The translations under genes were made by a program, and so were the position numbers. From NCBI GenBank assembly GCA_019637445.1, contig JAHBVS010000001.1:434001-498000 (forward strand): a DNA stretch of 64,000 nt, written 5' to 3'. The notes under the pieces are model-generated. The model ran no database searches. It worked only from the letters and a program-made list of their open reading frames with translations, and was not told the DNA's origin. Positions 21,411 through 30,844 of this stretch are shown here, in pieces. Positions within the stretch are counted from its first letter, which is position 1, and every line of letters starts with the position of its first letter. The DNA is from Gemmatimonadaceae bacterium. GTDB lineage: Bacteria > Gemmatimonadota > Gemmatimonadetes > Gemmatimonadales > Gemmatimonadaceae.

Positions 21411-23642
21411 CTAGGGGACCACGATGACCTCTATTTGGTATGGCGTCGGAGGGATGCCAACCGAGGTCGAGAAGACCCTAGCGTAGAGACGGCCTCCGGC
21501 CGGCGGGGACGGCACGATGGCACTCGCCACGCCCTCGCCAACAACGTCAACGGTTTCCCACGTAAAGGTCTCGCCCTCGCGCCGAACCTGCATGCGCAGG
21601 CCGTGAGTCGCCGACGCACCGGCAGGAACCGTCAGTGTGAACTCGTAGCTCGCATCGGGAACGGCGGCGACACTGAACTCATCGGAATCAACAGGTGCAT
21701 CGAGCGACTCCGAGGTCGGCACGCCAAGCACCAAGCTGGTGTCGGCAGTCTCAGGCCAGAACGACCAGGCCGAGATCAGCATCTCGTAGCGCGCGGGTTC
21801 GGGGATATCCACGGAGTTTGGAAACGCCTGCACGAGAAGATCTATCAGCCCGGGCTCCGCCACGGTATACGCGAATCCGTACCTGTCGGACGTCGCGAAG
21901 CGAGCCCAGCCGCCCTCCGAGTTCGTTCCAACGCCAGGAACGCTTGAGTAGAGCGAGAACAGCGGTTGGCGCAGCTCGGTGGCGCGAATCTGCAGGTCGT
22001 ACACGCTGAACGGGTCGGCTGTGAAATTGAACCGGTCGAGGTCTCCCGCTTCGTCGAGGGATTCCGTGGTGATCCACACGTTGAGCGGTACCGCGGCAGG
22101 TACAGACTCAGGCGCGGGATCCAAACCGAGGACGCGTAGCTCGTACGGCGTGTCGAAGGCGCGCAACCCGCGAACGTGCAGCTCGTAGCTGCCCGTGGTC
22201 GTCGCTGTCAGCGCACCGTAGAACGTGCTGAGCCCTCCGTCACCAGAAACGCCGAGCCCACCGAGGGTGTCCCCCTCCGGTGTGATGACGGACGCGTGGA
22301 TCTCCTGCTCCGCCGCGAGCGTGGGTGCAGCGAGGAAGTAGTTGAACACGTCCCCGGCGGACAGCGACAGCGAGTACACGTCAAGATCCCCGGGACGGTC
22401 GATGCGCTCCGCGAGGACCGGGACGTCCAAGGCGATAGCGGCAGCGGCCACTTCCGGCGCCGCGGCGACTTGGTAGACCTCGAGGCGGTATTCCGTCGTG
22501 CCAAGCGATGGCGGCACGCGCGTCGGACCGTAGACCCTGATCTGATGAACGCCTGGCGCAGTGACTCGCCACAGGGCGGTACCGACACTGTCCAACGTCG
22601 AGACCACGCGGTCGGTGAGATGCGTCGGGATGATAGACTGCCCGTCAAGGCGAACCTCCAACCCGCTGGCCATCGCCGTGCCGATGGCCACGTTGATGTG
22701 CAGTTCCTGTCCTGCCTCGACCGTGAGCGCAAACTCGTCAATGTCCCCAACAACGTCGAGCGATTCCGTGACGGTATCCCCGGGCGCCAGCGCCACGGGC
22801 GCGGTCTCGGGCGCACGTTCAATGCGGTGCACCCATAGGCTATACGGGCCGCGGTAGCCCGGCAGTGCACCAGGCGCCCCACCAACTGCCCTGGACACCG
22901 TGACGGACTGCATGCCGGTCTGGCTCAATCGGACCGTCGCCGACTTCTCTTCGAAGGAGCGCGTGGACGCGTTGAAGCCAGTGCGATTCAGTACCGTGTC
23001 GTTCACACTCCGAATCTCGATCTGGGCGGACTCACCAGGCCGATCGGTGTCGGTGCGAAGAAACACGATGACTTCGTCTCCCTCCGTCCCGGCAAACTGA
23101 AAACGATCCGACTCGCCTGCGCTGTCGAGCCACTCGCCCGAGGTCGTGTCTCCGTAAGCCAAGAGCGCAGGAACATGCTCGGGTGCGCTGCCAGGGTTGA
23201 AGATCGCAAGCCGATACGGCAACGAGGGTTGGCCGGCGCGCCGGCGAAGCAGGATACGAACGGGCGTCGTCGCCTCCTGCGGTTCGAGGAACAGCTGCTC
23301 ATCGCCAAACGCGACCTGCGAGCCCGCCACGGCGAACGAAGCGAGGGGCAGATCACCAGCCACAGTCCGCACTTCTCCGTGTACACTGTCGGCGACACTT
23401 CCCGTCTCCGTGGAAAGCCACATGCGGAGTCGTGTTGCCGAGGGGAGGGTTGCGACGAACTCGACCACATCGGCGTTCGACACGAGGCCTGACCGAGGGG
23501 AATCGATGACGAGGACAATGGGCGCCGGCGGCGGCTCTGGCTCCTCAACTTCGGTCGGCCCTTCAGATGCGCAGGAGGCGGCGCCGGAGAAGAGCGCTGC
23601 GGTGAGCATGAGGCGCCGAGCGGCGAGGGCAGTGTTCTTCAT
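21411..23642 (-). CDS. Large lipoprotein with repeated PPC-like domains
   Basis: This 743-residue protein has a lipobox (LFSGAASC). The mature part is made of repeated beta domains of about 110-130 residues. Each carries a variant of E-x-L-D-x-x-G-D-x-D-x-F (ESLDVVGDIDEF, ERIDRPGDLDVY, ESLDEAGDLDRF, ESLDAPVDSDEF, EWLDSAGESDRF). This resembles bacterial pre-peptidase C-terminal (PPC) domains, which usually accompany secreted proteases; no protease is present here. The acidic loops could bind calcium. ATG 23642 is chosen; a GTG four codons upstream is also possible. Probably an outer-surface binding or structural lipoprotein; function unknown. Confidence 0.72.
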   Translation of the reverse strand: MKNTALAARRLMLTAALFSGAASCASEGPTEVEEPEPPPAPIVLVIDSPRSGLVSNADVVEFVATLPSATRLRMWLSTETGSVADSVHGEVRTVAGDLPLASFAVAGSQVAFGDEQLFLEPQEATTPVRILLRRRAGQPSLPYRLAIFNPGSAPEHVPALLAYGDTTSGEWLDSAGESDRFQFAGTEGDEVIVFLRTDTDRPGESAQIEIRSVNDTVLNRTGFNASTRSFEEKSATVRLSQTGMQSVTVSRAVGGAPGALPGYRGPYSLWVHRIERAPETAPVALAPGDTVTESLDVVGDIDEFALTVEAGQELHINVAIGTAMASGLEVRLDGQSIIPTHLTDRVVSTLDSVGTALWRVTAPGVHQIRVYGPTRVPPSLGTTEYRLEVYQVAAAPEVAAAAIALDVPVLAERIDRPGDLDVYSLSLSAGDVFNYFLAAPTLAAEQEIHASVITPEGDTLGGLGVSGDGGLSTFYGALTATTTGSYELHVRGLRAFDTPYELRVLGLDPAPESVPAAVPLNVWITTESLDEAGDLDRFNFTADPFSVYDLQIRATELRQPLFSLYSSVPGVGTNSEGGWARFATSDRYGFAYTVAEPGLIDLLVQAFPNSVDIPEPARYEMLISAWSFWPETADTSLVLGVPTSESLDAPVDSDEFSVAAVPDASYEFTLTVPAGASATHGLRMQVRREGETFTWETVDVVGEGVASAIVPSPPAGGRLYARVFSTSVGIPPTPYQIEVIVVP

Positions 23643-23781
23643 GGCAGGACGCAAGTGTGGACGGCCAGAAAATGGCTCGCAATGGAGCGGCGGAATAATA
23701 CCCGCGGATTAGGAGCCAGCAAGAAGCCTAGGTCGCTTGAGCCGGCGACGCCTCGCAACTGCGAACCCGCCCCAGTCGCAG

Positions 23782-23793: not shown

Positions 23794-24900
23794 ATGTTCA
23801 CCGACATCGATCCCCGCAGCTCCACTCCGCTCTACCAGCAGTTGGTCGAGAGCGTGCGGCGCTCGGTCGCGCGGGGCGAATCGGTGCCCGGTGAACCGCT
23901 CCCCTCGGTGAAGGCCCTGGCGGCGCGGCTGCGCATCAATCCGTCGGCGGTCTCGCAGGCCTATCGCGAGATGCTGCGCGAGGGCATCGCCGAGGAGGAT
24001 GGCAGCGACAGCCAGCCGTCGGTGCGGATCGCCCGCGCCGCGCCATCGCCGTCGAGCGCGATCGGTGGCGAGCGCGTGACGCGCCTCGAGAGCGGCGAGA
24101 CCATCGAGAGCCGCTTCCGCATCCTGCGCCGGCTGGGTGCCGGCGCGATGGGCGCCGTGTACCTGGCGCGCGACCTCGAGCTGGACGAGGACGTCGCCCT
24201 CAAGGTGTTGCCGCCGGTGGCCGGCGCCGACGAGACGGCGGTGCGGCGCTTCATCAACGAGATCCGCGTGGCCCGCAAGATCTCGCATCCCAATGTCGTG
24301 CGCACGCACGATGTCGGCCGATGGCAGGGCGGGCTCTTCCTGACGATGGAGTTCGTCGCCGGCCGCACCGTACGACAGGAGATCGATGCCCGCGGTGCGC
24401 TGCCGGCCGCCGAGGTCGTGGAGATTGCGCGGCAGTTGGTCGAGGCGCTGATCATCGCGCACGCGAACGGCGTGGTGCATCGCGACATCAAGCCGCAGAA
24501 CCTCGTGCTCGATCAGGCGGGAACGCTCAAGGTGCTCGACTTCGGCATCGCCGTCACCGAGGGCAGCAGCGGACAGCTGACCGAAGCCGGCATGGTCGTC
24601 GGCACGCCGGCCTACATGGCGCCCGAACAACTGCTCGGCGATCCGGTGGGGGCGCCGGCGGACTACTACTCGACGGGCGTGGTCCTGTACGAGATGCTCG
24701 CGGGGCGCCTGCCCTACGAGGCCACCTCGCCCGTGGCCCTCGCGGCACAGATCGTCCAACGCGGGCCGGCGCCACTCAACGCGTCCGCCGTGCAGGCGCC
24801 CGAGCGCCTCACCGCGCTGGTGATGGCGATGCTCCGGCACGAGGCCGCCGCGCGTCCAACGGGACCCGCCGTGCGCGAGGCCCTGCTCGAACTGGGCTAG
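23794..24900 (+). CDS. Fusion of a GntR/YtrA-type winged helix with a Ser/Thr protein kinase
   Basis: This 368-residue protein combines two families. Residues 1 to about 75 are a GntR-type winged helix closely resembling the neighbouring YtrA-like regulator (DPRSSTPLYQQLVESV, LPSVKALAARLRINPSAVSQAYREM). After an Ala/Ser-rich linker, residues 105-368 form a Hanks-type kinase: Gly-rich loop GAGAMGAVYLARD from Gly115, Lys137 in VALKVL, His229-Arg230-Asp231 in HRDIKPQN, Asp249-Phe-Gly, and APEQ. All catalytic residues are present, so it should be active. There is no membrane helix and no extracellular sensor, unlike most bacterial kinases. It probably phosphorylates a regulator or itself to control DNA binding. 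Directly downstream lies the paralogous GntR gene. Confidence 0.88.
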   Translation: MFTDIDPRSSTPLYQQLVESVRRSVARGESVPGEPLPSVKALAARLRINPSAVSQAYREMLREGIAEEDGSDSQPSVRIARAAPSPSSAIGGERVTRLESGETIESRFRILRRLGAGAMGAVYLARDLELDEDVALKVLPPVAGADETAVRRFINEIRVARKISHPNVVRTHDVGRWQGGLFLTMEFVAGRTVRQEIDARGALPAAEVVEIARQLVEALIIAHANGVVHRDIKPQNLVLDQAGTLKVLDFGIAVTEGSSGQLTEAGMVVGTPAYMAPEQLLGDPVGAPADYYSTGVVLYEMLAGRLPYEATSPVALAAQIVQRGPAPLNASAVQAPERLTALVMAMLRHEAAARPTGPAVREALLELG

Positions 24901-24921: not shown

Positions 24922-24962
24922 TTGACAGCAGCAGGAGGGTGCTACACTGTATTGGTACAGTG
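24922..24962 (+). promoter_or_regulatory. Promoter and palindromic operator of the ytrA-like ABC operon
   Basis: TTGACA at 24922 and TACACT at 24943 form the likely promoter, with a short 15-base spacer. A perfect dyad, CACTGTA-TTGG-TACAGTG (24945-24962), overlaps the -10 and resembles operators of YtrA-type GntR repressors. The ATG at 24988 follows 25 bases later. Confidence 0.7.
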
Positions 24963-24987
24963 ATACACTCTCCCAGCCTACGGCCGT

Positions 24988-25365
24988 ATGTTCAGCCACG
25001 TTGACCCGCGCAGTCCGACGCCGATCTACGCGCAGATTGCCGACCGCATCCGCGTGGCGGTGGCGGCGGGCGAGCTCGCGCCGGGACAGGACCTGCCCTC
25101 GGTGCGCAGTCTCGCCTCTCGGCTGCGCGTGAACCCCGCCACGGTCGTGCAGGCCTACCGCGAACTGCAGCGCGAGGGGCTGGTCGAGCTGCGGCAGGGC
25201 TCGGGCACCTTCGTGTCCGAGGTCGGCGGCGCGACTAGGGCCCGCGAGCGCGAGCGCGCCGCCCGACGCCTGGTGCGGGACATGTTGGGGGAGGCGGCGC
25301 GACTGGGGATCGGGGTGGACGAGGTCTCGGCCGCGCTGGCCATCGAACTTCCGGAGGCACGGTGA
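24988..25365 (+). CDS. GntR family repressor, YtrA subfamily
   Basis: This 125-residue regulator has only the winged-helix domain (YAQIADRIRVAVAAGELAPG, LPSVRSLASRLRVNPATVVQAY, LVELRQGSGTFVSE) and a short C-terminal dimerisation helix, as in the YtrA subfamily. Those regulators typically repress adjacent ABC transporter operons, and here an ABC ATPase starts at a GTG overlapping its stop. A perfect dyad overlaps its promoter, which indicates autoregulation. It shares clear N-terminal similarity with the fused domain of the kinase upstream, so both may bind the same site. Confidence 0.9.
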   Translation: MFSHVDPRSPTPIYAQIADRIRVAVAAGELAPGQDLPSVRSLASRLRVNPATVVQAYRELQREGLVELRQGSGTFVSEVGGATRARERERAARRLVRDMLGEAARLGIGVDEVSAALAIELPEAR

Positions 25366-26267
25366 GCGACGCGATTCGCGTACGGGACCTGGCGTACCGG
25401 GTGGGCAAGGGCTTTGCCATCCGTGATCTCTCGATGACGGTGCCCACCGGCGCCATTTACGGCTTCCTCGGCCCCAACGGCTCGGGCAAGACCACGACCA
25501 TCCGCCTGATGCTCGGCATGTTGCCGCCGCTGCACGGCGTCATCGAAGTGCTCGGTCACGCGATCCCGCGCTACGCGCACCGTGCGCTGGCGGGAGTGGG
25601 CTACGTGCCGGAGCGCCTACACCTCTACACGCGGTTCACGGTGGACGACGCCATCCGCTACCATCGCACGTTCTTTCCCGGCTTCTCCAATGAGGAGGCC
25701 GAGCGCCTGCGGCGTCGCTTCGGCCTGCGCGAGGACCAGCGCATCGGCGCACTGTCCAAGGGCGAGTCGGGCAAGCTGATGATGCTGCTCGCGCTGGCCC
25801 AGGGCGCGGAGTTGCTCGTGCTCGACGAGCCGACGGACGGTCTCGATCCCGTGATCCGCCGCGAGGTGCTGAGCGCGCTGGTCGAGTACGTCGAGGAGAA
25901 GCGCGCCACCGTGTTCATCTCCAGCCACCTGGTGCACGAACAGGAGCGCATCTGCGATTGGGTCGGCGTGATGGACGGTGGCCGGCTGGTCGCCGAACTG
26001 CCGATGCAGGAGTTCCGCAGCGGCATCAAGCGTCTGCGCGTCGCCCAAGCGCCGCCCGCGCGCGACGCCGCGCCGTTCACCGTGCTCTCGCGCGACGAGG
26101 TCTCCCTGCACTACGAGGACTGGGTGGTGCGCGGCTGGCAGCCGGAGATGCGCGAGTGGTTCCAGCGCGTTGGCGCCGAGGTGCGGGACGTGCAGGACCT
26201 CGACCTCGAGGATTCGTTCGTGGAACTGCTGCGCGGCGCGCGCAGCCCGGACCAGGAGCTGCGATGA
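25362..26267 (+). CDS. ABC transporter ATP-binding protein (YtrB-like)
   Basis: This 301-residue cytoplasmic ATPase has Walker A GPNGSGKTT, Walker B LLVLDEPTDGLDP and the switch His in ISSHLVHEQ. The signature motif is LSKGESGK, a departure from LSGGQ that is seen in YtrB/CcmA-like transporters. The C-terminal 80 residues are an extra domain (YEDWVVRGWQPEMREWF). It is coupled to the regulator upstream (GTGA) and to the permease downstream (ATGA). It should energise the single permease next door. The substrate is unknown; relatives in other phyla respond to cell-wall antibiotics. Confidence 0.92.
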   Translation: MSDAIRVRDLAYRVGKGFAIRDLSMTVPTGAIYGFLGPNGSGKTTTIRLMLGMLPPLHGVIEVLGHAIPRYAHRALAGVGYVPERLHLYTRFTVDDAIRYHRTFFPGFSNEEAERLRRRFGLREDQRIGALSKGESGKLMMLLALAQGAELLVLDEPTDGLDPVIRREVLSALVEYVEEKRATVFISSHLVHEQERICDWVGVMDGGRLVAELPMQEFRSGIKRLRVAQAPPARDAAPFTVLSRDEVSLHYEDWVVRGWQPEMREWFQRVGAEVRDVQDLDLEDSFVELLRGARSPDQELR

Positions 26268-26917
26268 AGTTCGCCATGATCCTGCGGACGCAGTGGACGT
26301 GGACGCGGACCGCGCTGCTGTCGGTGACGGCCTTGGCGTTCCTGCTGCCGATCATCCTGATCCGGCTGTACACCCTCGGCGGAATCTCGAGCACGCTCAA
26401 CGCGATCGTGGAGCAGACGACGCTGCAGACGCCACTGACGCTGTTGGCCATCATCGGTCCCTTCGTGCTCGCGGCGCTGCCCTGGGCCGCGGATGCCGAG
26501 GCCAAGCACGTGTACGCCCTGTCGCTGCCCATCCCCTGGCGCGAGTACGTGGCGTTGCGCTACGGGGCCGGCGCCGTCTTCCTCCTCCTGCCTGCGCTGG
26601 CGCTGTACGTCAGTACGCTGCTGCTGCTCTCGCGCGTCACGCTGCCCGACGTGTTGCACGCGTACCCTGGCGCGTTGGCGCTGCGCTTCCTCCTTGCCTC
26701 GCTGGTGGCCTACTCCGCCACCTTCGCGCTGCAGTACCTCGCCGGACGACGCGGCCCAGCCGTCCTGCTCGGCGTGCTGGTTGGCGCGGTGCTGCTGGGC
26801 GGAGTCGCGGTCGTGAGCGGCCACTCGAGTTGGATCGACGCGGTCCAACGAGGCCTGATTGAGTGGCCAGGCCCCTTCGCGGTGTTCGTCGAGCCGTGGG
26901 TGCTGATTGATGTCTAG
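26264..26917 (+). CDS. ABC transporter permease subunit
   Basis: This 217-residue membrane protein has about six hydrophobic segments: ALLSVTALAFLLPIILI, LTLLAIIGPFVLAALP, VFLLLPALALYVSTLLLL, then FLLASLVAYSATFALQYLAG and VLLGVLVGAVLLGGVAVVS. Between the second and third is EAKHVYALSLPIPWREYVALRYG, the coupling-loop pattern common to export-type permeases. It overlaps the ATPase gene (ATGA), and the next gene starts just before its stop. Single permeases of this size usually dimerise. Start ATG 26264 is set by the overlap. Confidence 0.85.
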   Translation: MKFAMILRTQWTWTRTALLSVTALAFLLPIILIRLYTLGGISSTLNAIVEQTTLQTPLTLLAIIGPFVLAALPWAADAEAKHVYALSLPIPWREYVALRYGAGAVFLLLPALALYVSTLLLLSRVTLPDVLHAYPGALALRFLLASLVAYSATFALQYLAGRRGPAVLLGVLVGAVLLGGVAVVSGHSSWIDAVQRGLIEWPGPFAVFVEPWVLIDV

Positions 26918-27923
26918 GCAGCGGATGCTGGCCGCCGCGGCCTTGCTGTGGCTGACTGCCTCGGTGGAGGGCGCCGCGCAGTCGATGTCGCTCGATTCGC
27001 TTCGGCACGCCACCGCCACGATGGGCGACTCGGTCGACGCGGCGCGGACACGGTGGATCACCAGCGTGCGCCGCGGCACCACCGTCTATGACGACTCGCT
27101 CGTCCACGAGGGCGTGACGCTGCTCTTCGGCCGGTCCTCCATCACGGACGAGTCGATGCTGCGGATTCGCGAGGGGATCACCCAGGGCGTTGCGGCGCTG
27201 GAGCGCCAGTTGCCGGGAGCCGCCGAGATCCTGCTGGCCGGCGATGCCTGGGGAATTCAGCCGTCGAAGATGAGCTTCGAGTTTGCCTCGCAGCGCGAGG
27301 ATGTACTGCGCCTGGCGCCGGGTCGCGACCGATTCGCGCGCGGCGGCCGTACCCTCCGCCTGCCGGTCGACACCAAGGTCGTGCGGGAGTGGGTCGTCGA
27401 TCGCGCCGGCCAGCGTCTGGCCGATCTCCATCCCGGCCTGCGCGCGCTCGTTGGCAACGCGGCCATTCTTGCGACGGACGATGCCGTGCACCGCACGGCG
27501 GCCCGCAGCCTTGCGCTCAGCCGCTCATCCGTCAGCCGCCGTTGCATCACCGGCGTGACCGCGGCCTGCTCCGCCTTGCTGAGTCCTGACGACGCCGGCT
27601 GGTGGGATCCCGAGGAACGCCCACGTATTCGGACGCTGGCGGTGCTGCCCGCCGTCGGGGTGAGCGCGCTCGCCTTCGCCATCGAGGAGGGTGGCAGCGA
27701 CTTCCTCCGCGCCGTGAAGGCCCGTGAGTCCGAATCGCTGGACGCCGTCCCGCTGATCGCCGCGGCCCTGCAGCGCCCGGTGGACGACGTGCTCACGTCG
27801 TGGCTCTCCCGACTGCAATCCGCGCGGATCGCCGCCACGTCGGTCCCTGCCGGACTCCTGTTGAGTTCACTGCTGTGGAGCGTCGCCTTCGCGGCCGTCG
27901 TGGCCATACGGAGGCCGCGATGA
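26910..27923 (+). CDS. Exported, C-terminally anchored protein of the ABC operon, unknown function
   Basis: This 337-residue protein begins at an ATG overlapping the permease stop. It has a signal peptide (AALLWLTASVEGAAQ), a soluble domain of about 270 residues and a C-terminal helix (LLSSLLWSVAFAAVVAIRR), so the bulk should face the periplasm. A TVYDDSLVHEGVTLLF segment and the region EEGGSDFLRAVKARESE are conserved-looking but no catalytic motif is obvious. Three cysteines lie in RRCITGVTAACSALL. I recognise no family. Its position between transporter and the next membrane protein suggests an accessory or sensor role in export. Confidence 0.75.
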   Translation: MSRQRMLAAAALLWLTASVEGAAQSMSLDSLRHATATMGDSVDAARTRWITSVRRGTTVYDDSLVHEGVTLLFGRSSITDESMLRIREGITQGVAALERQLPGAAEILLAGDAWGIQPSKMSFEFASQREDVLRLAPGRDRFARGGRTLRLPVDTKVVREWVVDRAGQRLADLHPGLRALVGNAAILATDDAVHRTAARSLALSRSSVSRRCITGVTAACSALLSPDDAGWWDPEERPRIRTLAVLPAVGVSALAFAIEEGGSDFLRAVKARESESLDAVPLIAAALQRPVDDVLTSWLSRLQSARIAATSVPAGLLLSSLLWSVAFAAVVAIRRPR

Positions 27924-29032
27924 CTCCCCGCGGGCACGTAGCTCGACGCTGGGCGCTGCGCCTCACGGTTCCCGTCGCGATGGTCCTGGCGTGGTGGATG
28001 CTGATGCCCCTGCGGGACGATGAGCGCAGCGGATTCGACACCTACTTCTTGATGACGTTCGGCGAGGATGCCTCCTCGGCGCGTGACTTGTGGGTCGCGC
28101 GCAGCGACTCCCTGCGGGCGCTCCAGGGAGCGCTGCGGCGCACCGAGGCAGCCCAACGGGTCGCGCAGCTGCTGGCCGTGCGCGACGGGCGCCGCGTGAG
28201 TGCCGATGCATGGTTGCCGCGCGAAACACGCACGGCCTTTGTCGCGGCCGTGACGCGGGTGCTCGATTCGATGCCCGAAGACGCCGCCGCCCGGGTGCGG
28301 GTGCACATCGGCAAGACGTCGGACTCGGATCAGGTGGGCTTGGGCCTCGTCTACTCGCTCCCCACGACTGCGGGTGCACCGTGCATCGTGCTCCTCGGCA
28401 TTGGCCCGCAGTTCAGTGAGCGCGTGCAGCCGAGCAGCATTTCGAACCTCCTAGGCCCCTGCGCGTTCTACGCGCGCTTCGGAGCGCCTGGAAGCGGCAT
28501 GCACGCGTGGCTGATGCGGACCTACGGCGCGGCGGCCGGGACGATCGACCCGCCCGTCGATCGACCGGGGACGCTGCGCCGGCGGGCTCGCCTTCGCGAC
28601 GTCCGCTCCGCTGCACTGGTCTCTTGCACCGCCGGGAGACTCGACGCCTGTGAGCGCTACTACTTCCTGGTCGATGCCCGTACCAGCCCGTCCCGATTCG
28701 CCCGGCTCGAGGGGGACGCGCTCGCCCACGTGGTCCTCAGTGATCTGGGCAGCTGGCGAAGGTATCCTGCCGCGAACCTCGCCCGCATCCGGCTTGCCAT
28801 CGGGGACGCGGCCTTCGAGCGTGTCTGGCGCAGCGAGCACGAACCGGTGGAAGCGCTGCGCGTCGCGGAGGGCCGTTCGGCCGGCGCGCTTGCCCACGAG
28901 ATCCTCATGACGATGTACGAGCCCCGTCGGCCAGGGCCGCTACCCGCCGGCCTACCGTTGCTCGCCAGCGCCGTGATGGTCGTGGGGGCCTCGCTGGCCG
29001 GCATGCGCCTGTCCGCGAGGCGGCAGAGCTAG
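27920..29032 (+). CDS. Membrane-anchored protein, last gene of the ABC operon, unknown function
   Basis: This 370-residue protein overlaps the previous gene (ATGA). It has an N-terminal helix (LRLTVPVAMVLAWWMLMPL) and a C-terminal helix (LLASAVMVVGASLAGMRL), with a large domain between them predicted on the outside. Four cysteines occur (APCIVLL, LGPCAFYARF, VSCTAGRLDACERY). The segment RLEGDALAHVVLSDLG and the C-terminal GALAHEILMTMYE hint at a degenerate peptidase-like helical layout shared with the preceding protein, but no HExxH is present. No named family is recognised. Confidence 0.75.
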   Translation: MTPRGHVARRWALRLTVPVAMVLAWWMLMPLRDDERSGFDTYFLMTFGEDASSARDLWVARSDSLRALQGALRRTEAAQRVAQLLAVRDGRRVSADAWLPRETRTAFVAAVTRVLDSMPEDAAARVRVHIGKTSDSDQVGLGLVYSLPTTAGAPCIVLLGIGPQFSERVQPSSISNLLGPCAFYARFGAPGSGMHAWLMRTYGAAAGTIDPPVDRPGTLRRRARLRDVRSAALVSCTAGRLDACERYYFLVDARTSPSRFARLEGDALAHVVLSDLGSWRRYPAANLARIRLAIGDAAFERVWRSEHEPVEALRVAEGRSAGALAHEILMTMYEPRRPGPLPAGLPLLASAVMVVGASLAGMRLSARRQS

Positions 29033-29120: not shown

Positions 29121-29495
29121 ATGTCCCAGCCTTACCTGCCCCCCCGGGAGCTCGCCGTCATGAGCTCCCTCTGGCGCCGCGGATCCGCCACCGTCGCCGA
29201 GGTCCGCGAGGACCTCGACGATGAACTGGCCTACACCTCGGTGCTCTCCGCCCTCCAGACGCTCACCGAGAAGGGTTACGTGCGCCACGAGCGCGAAGGC
29301 CGCGCCTACCGCTACTTCCCGGCCCTCAAGGCCGAGGCGGTGGGCCGCACGTCGCTGCGGCGCATCCGCGACGCCGTCTTCCAGGGTTCCGCCGAGAAGC
29401 TGGTGGCGCAGCTGCTCGAGGATCGCGACGTGAGCCCTGAGGAACTGCGGCGACTGCGCGCGCTCCTGGCGAAGCGACTCGAGGAAGGTGCCTGA
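29121..29495 (+). CDS. BlaI/MecI family transcriptional repressor (second copy)
   Basis: This 124-residue repressor has the winged helix (RELAVMSSLWRRGSATVAEV, LAYTSVLSALQTLTEKGYVRH) and C-terminal dimer arm (VAQLLEDRDVSPEELRRLRALL) of the BlaI family. Its stop and the start of the following M56 gene share one base (TGATG), and a perfect dyad overlaps its promoter, so it should repress its own operon. It differs clearly from the copy at 15287 and its dyad sequence differs too, so the two circuits are probably insulated. Confidence 0.92.
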   Translation: MSQPYLPPRELAVMSSLWRRGSATVAEVREDLDDELAYTSVLSALQTLTEKGYVRHEREGRAYRYFPALKAEAVGRTSLRRIRDAVFQGSAEKLVAQLLEDRDVSPEELRRLRALLAKRLEEGA

Positions 29496-30844
29496 TGCGC
29501 GATCTCGCTGTTGTGGGGCTGCTGGCCTCAGTCGTTCTCGTGGTCGCTGCCGCGGGGATCGAAGTCATCCTGCGAGGGACGCGCGCCCCGACGCGCCTGG
29601 CCTGGCTCTCGGCGCTTGTCCTGAGCGCAGCCGCCGTGATGCTCACCGCACTCGGTGTCGACACGCGCGTCGCGCTTCCGGTGGCGCTGCCTGCCATCGT
29701 GCTCGACGGTCGCGACGCGCTCATTGCGATGGGCAGCAGCGCGCTCGGCGCGGACTCGACTGCCGCACGCCGTATCGACCGGGTGATTGCCGCGGTCTGG
29801 ATCGCGAGCGGGATCGGCACGCTGCTGCTGTTCGCCGTGGCGTATCGCCGGCAGTTGCGGATTGCCGCGCGCGGCCCGCGCCGCGCGATCGACGGTGAAG
29901 CCGTTGCCGTCTCGCGTGACCTCGGGCCCGCCGTCCTCGGATTGCATCATCCGGTCATCGTGGTGCCCGACTGGTTGCTCGCACGCCCGGCGAGCGAGCA
30001 GGGTCTGGTCATCGCACACGAACGCGAGCACATCGCGGCGCGCGATCCACTCGTGCTGGCCATCGCCGCCGCCTGCGTGGCGCTGATGGCGTGGAATCCG
30101 TTGCTCTGGTGGGCCTTCGCCCGTCTGCGACTCGCCGTGGAGTTGGATTGCGACAGTCGCGTACTCGCCCGCGGCATCCGCGCGCGGGACTACGGACAGC
30201 TCTTGCTGGACTTGAGTGCCCTGCGCTCGGCCGTGCGTTCGCCGTTGCGCCTCGGCGCCCCGGCTCTGGCGCCCGCTCCCTCACAACTCGAACAGAGGAT
30301 TCGTGCCATGACCACCATCCCAGCCACACCCTCCCGCCGTCGGCTGCGCCTCGCGCTGGCGTCCGCCATTGCACTCGTCTCGGCGACGCTGGCCTGTTCC
30401 GGCACACTGAATCGAGTGGCCGGGCCGGAACCGAAGGCGCAGCCGAGCACGGCCGACATCCACGAGGTCCCACTGCACACGGAGCCCGCCGCGAAGCAGC
30501 CGCCGAAGGCGACCACGGCGACCGAGGACTACGCGGAACACGTTGTCTATTACGACTTCCAGGTGACGGCGCCGGTGCGACCCGCGGACGTGCGCTCGTT
30601 CCCGCAGTACCCAGCCGACCTGCGCGCCCAAGGCATCGAGGGCCGGGTGATGGCGCAGTTCATCGTGGACTCGTTGGGCCAGGTGGTGGTCCCGAGCTTC
30701 AAGGTTCTGGAGTCCACGAACGCGGGCTTCGAGCACGCGGTGCGCGCGGCGCTCGAGGGCATGCGCTTCGAGCCGGCGACGCTCAAGGGGAAGCACGTCG
30801 CGCAGCTGGTGCAGCAACCGTTCGTCTTCCAGCTCGCGCGCTAA
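29495..30844 (+). CDS. M56 membrane metallopeptidase fused to a TonB C-terminal domain
   Basis: This 449-residue protein has three N-terminal membrane helices, a zinc peptidase domain with His175-Glu176-x-x-His179 (HEREH) and an ELDCDSRVL segment holding the third ligand, and a fourth helix (LALASAIALVSATLACSG). The extracytoplasmic part is a Pro/Lys-containing linker and then a TonB/TonB_C domain: FPQYPADLRAQGIEGRVMAQ and AVRAALEGMRFEPATLKG. In BlaR1 the sensor sits at this position, so here the TonB-like fold may be the sensor or a link to outer-membrane receptors. It is coupled to the BlaI repressor upstream. A hairpin follows 70 bases later. Confidence 0.9.
   Translation: MRDLAVVGLLASVVLVVAAAGIEVILRGTRAPTRLAWLSALVLSAAAVMLTALGVDTRVALPVALPAIVLDGRDALIAMGSSALGADSTAARRIDRVIAAVWIASGIGTLLLFAVAYRRQLRIAARGPRRAIDGEAVAVSRDLGPAVLGLHHPVIVVPDWLLARPASEQGLVIAHEREHIAARDPLVLAIAAACVALMAWNPLLWWAFARLRLAVELDCDSRVLARGIRARDYGQLLLDLSALRSAVRSPLRLGAPALAPAPSQLEQRIRAMTTIPATPSRRRLRLALASAIALVSATLACSGTLNRVAGPEPKAQPSTADIHEVPLHTEPAAKQPPKATTATEDYAEHVVYYDFQVTAPVRPADVRSFPQYPADLRAQGIEGRVMAQFIVDSLGQVVVPSFKVLESTNAGFEHAVRAALEGMRFEPATLKGKHVAQLVQQPFVFQLAR

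Follow-up and report, generated by a model that had tools for sequence, protein, structure and literature searches.

Most bacterial Hanks-type Ser/Thr kinases reach genes only via diffusible substrates. PknK of Mycobacterium is a soluble Hanks kinase fused to a part resembling a transcription regulator, with the kinase domain located N-terminally and the MalT/STAND-like part C-terminally (PMC1262709, PMC4601284). The MalT-like M. tuberculosis fusion is recorded in a 2005 survey of prokaryotic kinase architectures whose text contains none of the words GntR, HTH or DNA-binding (PMC1262709). Proteins that combine a GntR head with an enzyme fold are already known from the MocR subfamily, where the enzyme part is a PLP-binding aminotransferase-like domain (PMC5320631); the pairing of a GntR head with a kinase was not met in the literature searched. 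Within the GntR regulators, members of the YtrA subfamily such as CGL2947 and YtrASa carry an N-terminal winged helix and are defined by a C-terminal two-helix dimerisation region of about 50 aa at a total length of 120-130 aa, the two helices making the dimer, and Arg42 of YtrASa has been proposed to contact G (PMC6746942). A functional precedent may be offered by CapK, a GHKL kinase with a STAS domain and an N-terminal HTH that phosphorylates the adjacent winged-helix repressor CapS (STAS-wHTH), relieving the operon. Removing the HTH from CapK made no difference (EMBO J 2026, PMC13373217), a warning that such a head need not matter.

The gene described here joins a YtrA-like GntR head to a Hanks-type kinase. 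It resembles CapK in being an HTH-headed kinase encoded beside a winged-helix repressor before an operon, but its kinase belongs to a different family. Compared with PknK, the kinase is C-terminal with nothing after it, and compared with MocR proteins the GntR head is fused to a kinase instead of an aminotransferase-like fold.

Architecture of the fusion gene

The GntR-kinase fusion is real and a single gene. It lies in a 64,000-nucleotide stretch of DNA from a Gemmatimonadaceae bacterium (the whole stretch analysed, here called the window; Table 1), starts with ATG and runs without interruption. Pfam places GntR at aa 13-67 (E 2.5e-8, above the curated cut-off) and Pkinase at aa 109-358 (E 1.5e-51). 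The GntR match covers only profile positions 1-55 of 64 and therefore misses the wing end. No further domain was found by Pfam, whether HisKA-like, receiver, GHKL, STAS or aminotransferase-like. All catalytic motifs of the kinase, namely the Gly loop, VAIK Lys, HRD, DFG and APE, are present (GAGAMG at 115, ALK at 135-137, HRDIKPQN at 229, DFG at 249 and GTPAYMAPEQ at 270). No membrane segment was called, since even the strongest hydrophobic stretch of 19 residues, with a mean of 1.3, falls short of a membrane helix. Pfam, motifs and hydrophobicity thus agree with the preliminary description, which had seen a GntR winged helix on a complete Hanks kinase without a membrane anchor, and the kinase is predicted to be complete and soluble.

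Head, linker and kinase have third-position GC values of 0.89, 0.94 and 0.91, against 0.63 in a possible TTG extension 5' of the ATG. The joint is therefore coding and the start probably lies near 23794; the even coding bias across the joint also counts against two mis-joined genes. An AlphaFold model of the protein (mean pLDDT 82.8) is confident over the kinase domain, the activation loop excepted, and a structure search with it returned PknA/PknB-type kinases as the best solved matches. In the head the model places helices at 12-27, 39-46 and 50-62 and short wing strands at 66-68 and 77-79, at a lower confidence (about 60-80, the alignment containing a single further head); on this model the winged-helix fold appears to be kept.

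Table 1. Features of the fusion gene and its surroundings, in window coordinates.
Feature	Coordinates	Strand	Basis or remark
Orphan gene, divergent, 747 aa, between acyl-CoA hydrolase and YtrA genes	21411..23654	-	no Pfam match
GntR-kinase fusion gene, 368 aa	23794..24900	+	one open frame; Pfam GntR + Pkinase; even GC3 across joint
YtrA-like GntR helix-turn-helix head (aa 1-68)	23794..23997	+	Pfam GntR, head alignment, AlphaFold helices
Altered wing (aa 65-80)	23986..24033	+	alignment; E-M-R-Q-G-x-G-T-F-V replaced by E-E-D-G-S-D-S-Q-P-S-V
Linker (aa 81-104)	24034..24105	+	GC3 0.94; AlphaFold low confidence at aa 81-94
Hanks-type Ser/Thr kinase domain (aa ~105-368)	24106..24897	+	Pfam, motifs, clade, structure matches
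TTGACA, possible -35 element just 5' of operator	24922..24927	+	sequence; no full promoter match
Predicted operator of YtrA-ABC operon, TGTATTGGTACAGTGATACA	24948..24967		TGTAT-N10-ATACA
Stand-alone YtrA-type GntR repressor, 125 aa	24988..25365	+	Pfam GntR E 8.8e-20; has C-terminal dimerisation region
ABC transporter ATP-binding protein	25362..26267	+	Pfam ABC_tran E 1.2e-23; 74-80% identical in congeners
Putative ABC permease (membrane protein), 217 aa	26264..26917	+	42-52% identical, same place in congeners

Origin of the kinase and of the GntR head

The closest kinase domains among the matches listed are 49-55% identical, and most of the nearest kinases are proteins with a HisKA-like region, a receiver and a C-terminal kinase, the first two being read from sequence motifs and not from a profile scan. 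In the kinase tree the fusion falls inside the receiver-domain kinase clade (support 98/95, branch 1.01), apart from the HAMP-sensor kinases. One receiver-type kinase is encoded in the same genome (C1:1346161-1347084) and is 45% identical to the fusion kinase; together with L005, L009 and L056 it represents the receiver-domain kinases of Gemmatimonadota, whose kinase domains are 45-55% identical to that of the fusion and C-terminal in the same clade. Their roughly 400 N-terminal residues, receiver included, correspond in the fusion to a GntR head and linker of about 100 residues. Because the kinase is C-terminal in these relatives as well, it appears to have kept its place while the GntR head replaced the sensor. 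Tree and alignments show the fusion to be a predicted sensor-kinase catalytic domain joined in frame to a YtrA-like head.

The family with HisKA-like region, receiver and C-terminal Ser/Thr kinase (L005, L009, L056, L178 and others) is widespread in Gemmatimonadota, and HAMP plus kinase proteins form a separate family there. Full-length matches apparently entering the head, such as L011 from residue 23, proved to be receiver-kinases aligned by chance, and the PADLOC matches of the fusion are generic kinase-domain matches.

The head retains the helix-turn-helix core when aligned with other GntR heads, mostly of YtrA type. It departs from them in an acidic wing tip and in a Lys at the position of the Arg that is conserved after LPSV. 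By our own positional reading, this Arg would be equivalent to Arg42 of YtrASa. The whole C-terminal YtrA region is absent from the fusion. Measured against the subfamily, the fusion has the winged-helix domain (above the Pfam cut-off, with a diverged wing end) and the common HTH signature. It lacks the two-helix dimerisation region of about 50 aa, no long palindromic operator precedes its own operon, the site lying before the neighbouring gene, and it carries a kinase. The missing dimerisation helices suggest that the head is probably no classical dimeric repressor. DNA binding by the head is possible and would likely be weaker or altered, and dimeric DNA binding in the manner of YtrA is unlikely.

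The gene downstream, separated from the fusion by 87 bases, encodes a YtrA-type protein that matches the solved YtrA-like chains 4ham, 3neu and 4r1h to about aa 115. The preliminary description had called this neighbour a stand-alone GntR with a similar N-terminus followed by ABC genes, with which Pfam and alignment concur, and had taken the two proteins for paralogues. The similarity of the heads stands (57% identity over 67 aa and 66% of bases), whereas a recent copying of the neighbour does not: the third base is the same at 21 of 38 shared residues, and the head tree joins the fusion head, in a weak grouping (87/88, branch 1.59), to YtrA proteins from a different genus. Tandem duplication of the neighbouring YtrA gene was accordingly rejected as the source of the head, which by these comparisons is not a recent copy of it.

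A lineage-specific gene in a conserved locus

In five of six congeners an acyl-CoA hydrolase gene directly precedes the genes for YtrA, the ABC ATPase and the permease, with a hydrolase-YtrA gap of about 230 bases in congener L044; no hydrolase was matched in the stretch examined of congener L046. The corresponding gap in the fusion genome is 3.6 kb and contains the fusion and the orphan gene. With the hydrolase directly before YtrA-ABC in congeners, fusion and orphan look like a lineage-specific insertion, and the simplest reading is an insertion or rearrangement within a conserved locus. Flanking repeats that might mark an insertion are weak and chance-like. The orphan is absent from 16 congeners; of 60 relatives, only two (genomes G052 and G045) gave distant matches, and its own genome has one distant paralogue (C1:2234057-2235973).

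Two uncharacterised genes without a Pfam match lie 3' of the permease (26907-29032, plus strand). They have diverged homologues (25-33%) downstream of YtrA-ABC in 5-6 of the 6 congeners and so belong to the conserved locus. These are followed by a BlaI/BlaR1-like pair (29121-30844, plus strand; Pfam), made up of a BlaI-type repressor and an M56 peptidase that carries a TonB domain at its C-terminus.

An exact dyad had been noted at 24945 (24945-24962, CACTGTATTGGTACAGTG) and is indeed present; the conserved operator is slightly shifted from it (Table 1). Of 15 orthologous upstream regions, 12 carry TGTAT-N10-ATACA with no more than one mismatch, those of the six congeners all included; the element begins 25-41 bases 5' of YtrA. 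The site in the fusion genome is the sole exact match in that genome. The six congeners lack the fusion and still carry the operator with YtrA; it belongs to the YtrA circuit, present elsewhere without the fusion. The 139 bases upstream of the fusion contain no operator and nothing above chance, and scans for promoters and terminators gave nothing, the consensus scan yielding no complete promoter.

No second fusion was found at any depth of search. All kinase candidates of 16 congeners were scored and none has a GntR head; 178-179 genomes of the family gave no second full-length match (up to 11 candidates scored per genome); full-length and head searches of a 395-genome phylum sample recovered no other fusion; 80 loci from GTDB contigs held no second frame with both domains; and among the matches listed from 199 Acidobacteriota and 296 Actinomycetota genomes there was none. 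The large searches score few candidates per genome and list best matches, being sensitive to similar GntR heads and kinases and missing distant ones, so that absence outside the family is weakly tested. The phylum search also brought up ten long open frames enclosing YtrA heads; on reading, all proved to be frame extensions upstream of ordinary GntR genes and were rejected. A literature search for GntR-kinase fusions returned nothing relevant. The expectation that this domain order is not characterised therefore holds for the genomes and literature searched, in which the source genome is the only one to encode it. By these comparisons the fusion gene is a lineage-specific chimera, and without an orthologue in the genomes searched there is no conservation to back a function.

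Possible roles of the fusion

We tentatively hypothesize that the fusion works as a soluble kinase whose head guides it to DNA or a DNA-bound regulator, which would make its phosphorylation local. The likeliest substrate would be the neighbouring YtrA repressor at the operator, and once phosphorylated YtrA would repress the ABC operon less tightly. In favour of this, the gene stands immediately ahead of the YtrA-ABC operon and its operator, and CapK, which phosphorylates the winged-helix repressor encoded beside it, offers an analogue for a possible action of the fusion kinase on YtrA. Several comparisons speak against this proposal: the gene has no orthologue in the genomes searched and no operator 5' of it, the YtrA-operator unit occurs without it in all six congeners examined, the head has an Arg-to-Lys change, an acidic wing tip and no dimerisation helices (PMC6746942), and the long branches of head (1.59) and kinase (1.01) could reflect relaxed constraint. 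The fuller version, in which a DNA-tethered Hanks kinase made by one domain swap would phosphorylate the repressor sitting at the operator and thereby switch a single operon, is doubtful.

Rated equally likely is a head left over from chance recombination, which would have lost DNA binding and would provide no more than a fold or contact surface, the kinase acting alone on other substrates. This would explain a singleton fusion whose head has a long branch, no dimerisation helices, an altered, acidic wing and the Arg-to-Lys change, but it fits less well with an intact HTH core, a maintained frame and codon bias, and a winged-helix fold kept in the AlphaFold model.

Self-regulation, in which the kinase would phosphorylate the head or linker of its own chain and so alter DNA binding away from the YtrA operator, would suit a protein that has both parts in one chain and several Ser residues in its linker and altered wing. 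It is rather unlikely, as no second site family was identified and no YtrA-type dyad lies upstream of the fusion itself. The preliminary description had proposed that the fusion heterodimerises with YtrA on a shared operator and phosphorylates it, giving a one-component switch with a kinase output. The similar heads and the adjacent genes with a single operator between them agree with such a switch. The fusion, however, lacks the two helices used for YtrA dimers (PMC6746942), which makes heterodimerisation less likely than either a DNA-directed kinase or a leftover head; with the operator kept in six fusion-free congeners and none 5' of the fusion, the proposal is improbable, and its heterodimer was not borne out. 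An assembly or sequencing error joining a YtrA-type gene to a kinase gene is very unlikely: although the fusion was found in no second genome, the assembly has 7 contigs, 100% completeness and 0.16% contamination, the frame is open and its GC3 even from the head across the linker into the kinase, and the head is no recent copy of the neighbouring gene.

The fusion is a test case, limited as a single instance. With a dead head it would only document domain shuffling and have little function. With a head that binds DNA, it would be a clear and recent example of a sensor kinase rewired through exchange of its input module for a DNA-binding head, and the kinase would be aimed at one promoter. A DNA-tethered kinase, if true, would mean that one domain swap can open a direct route from kinase to promoter.
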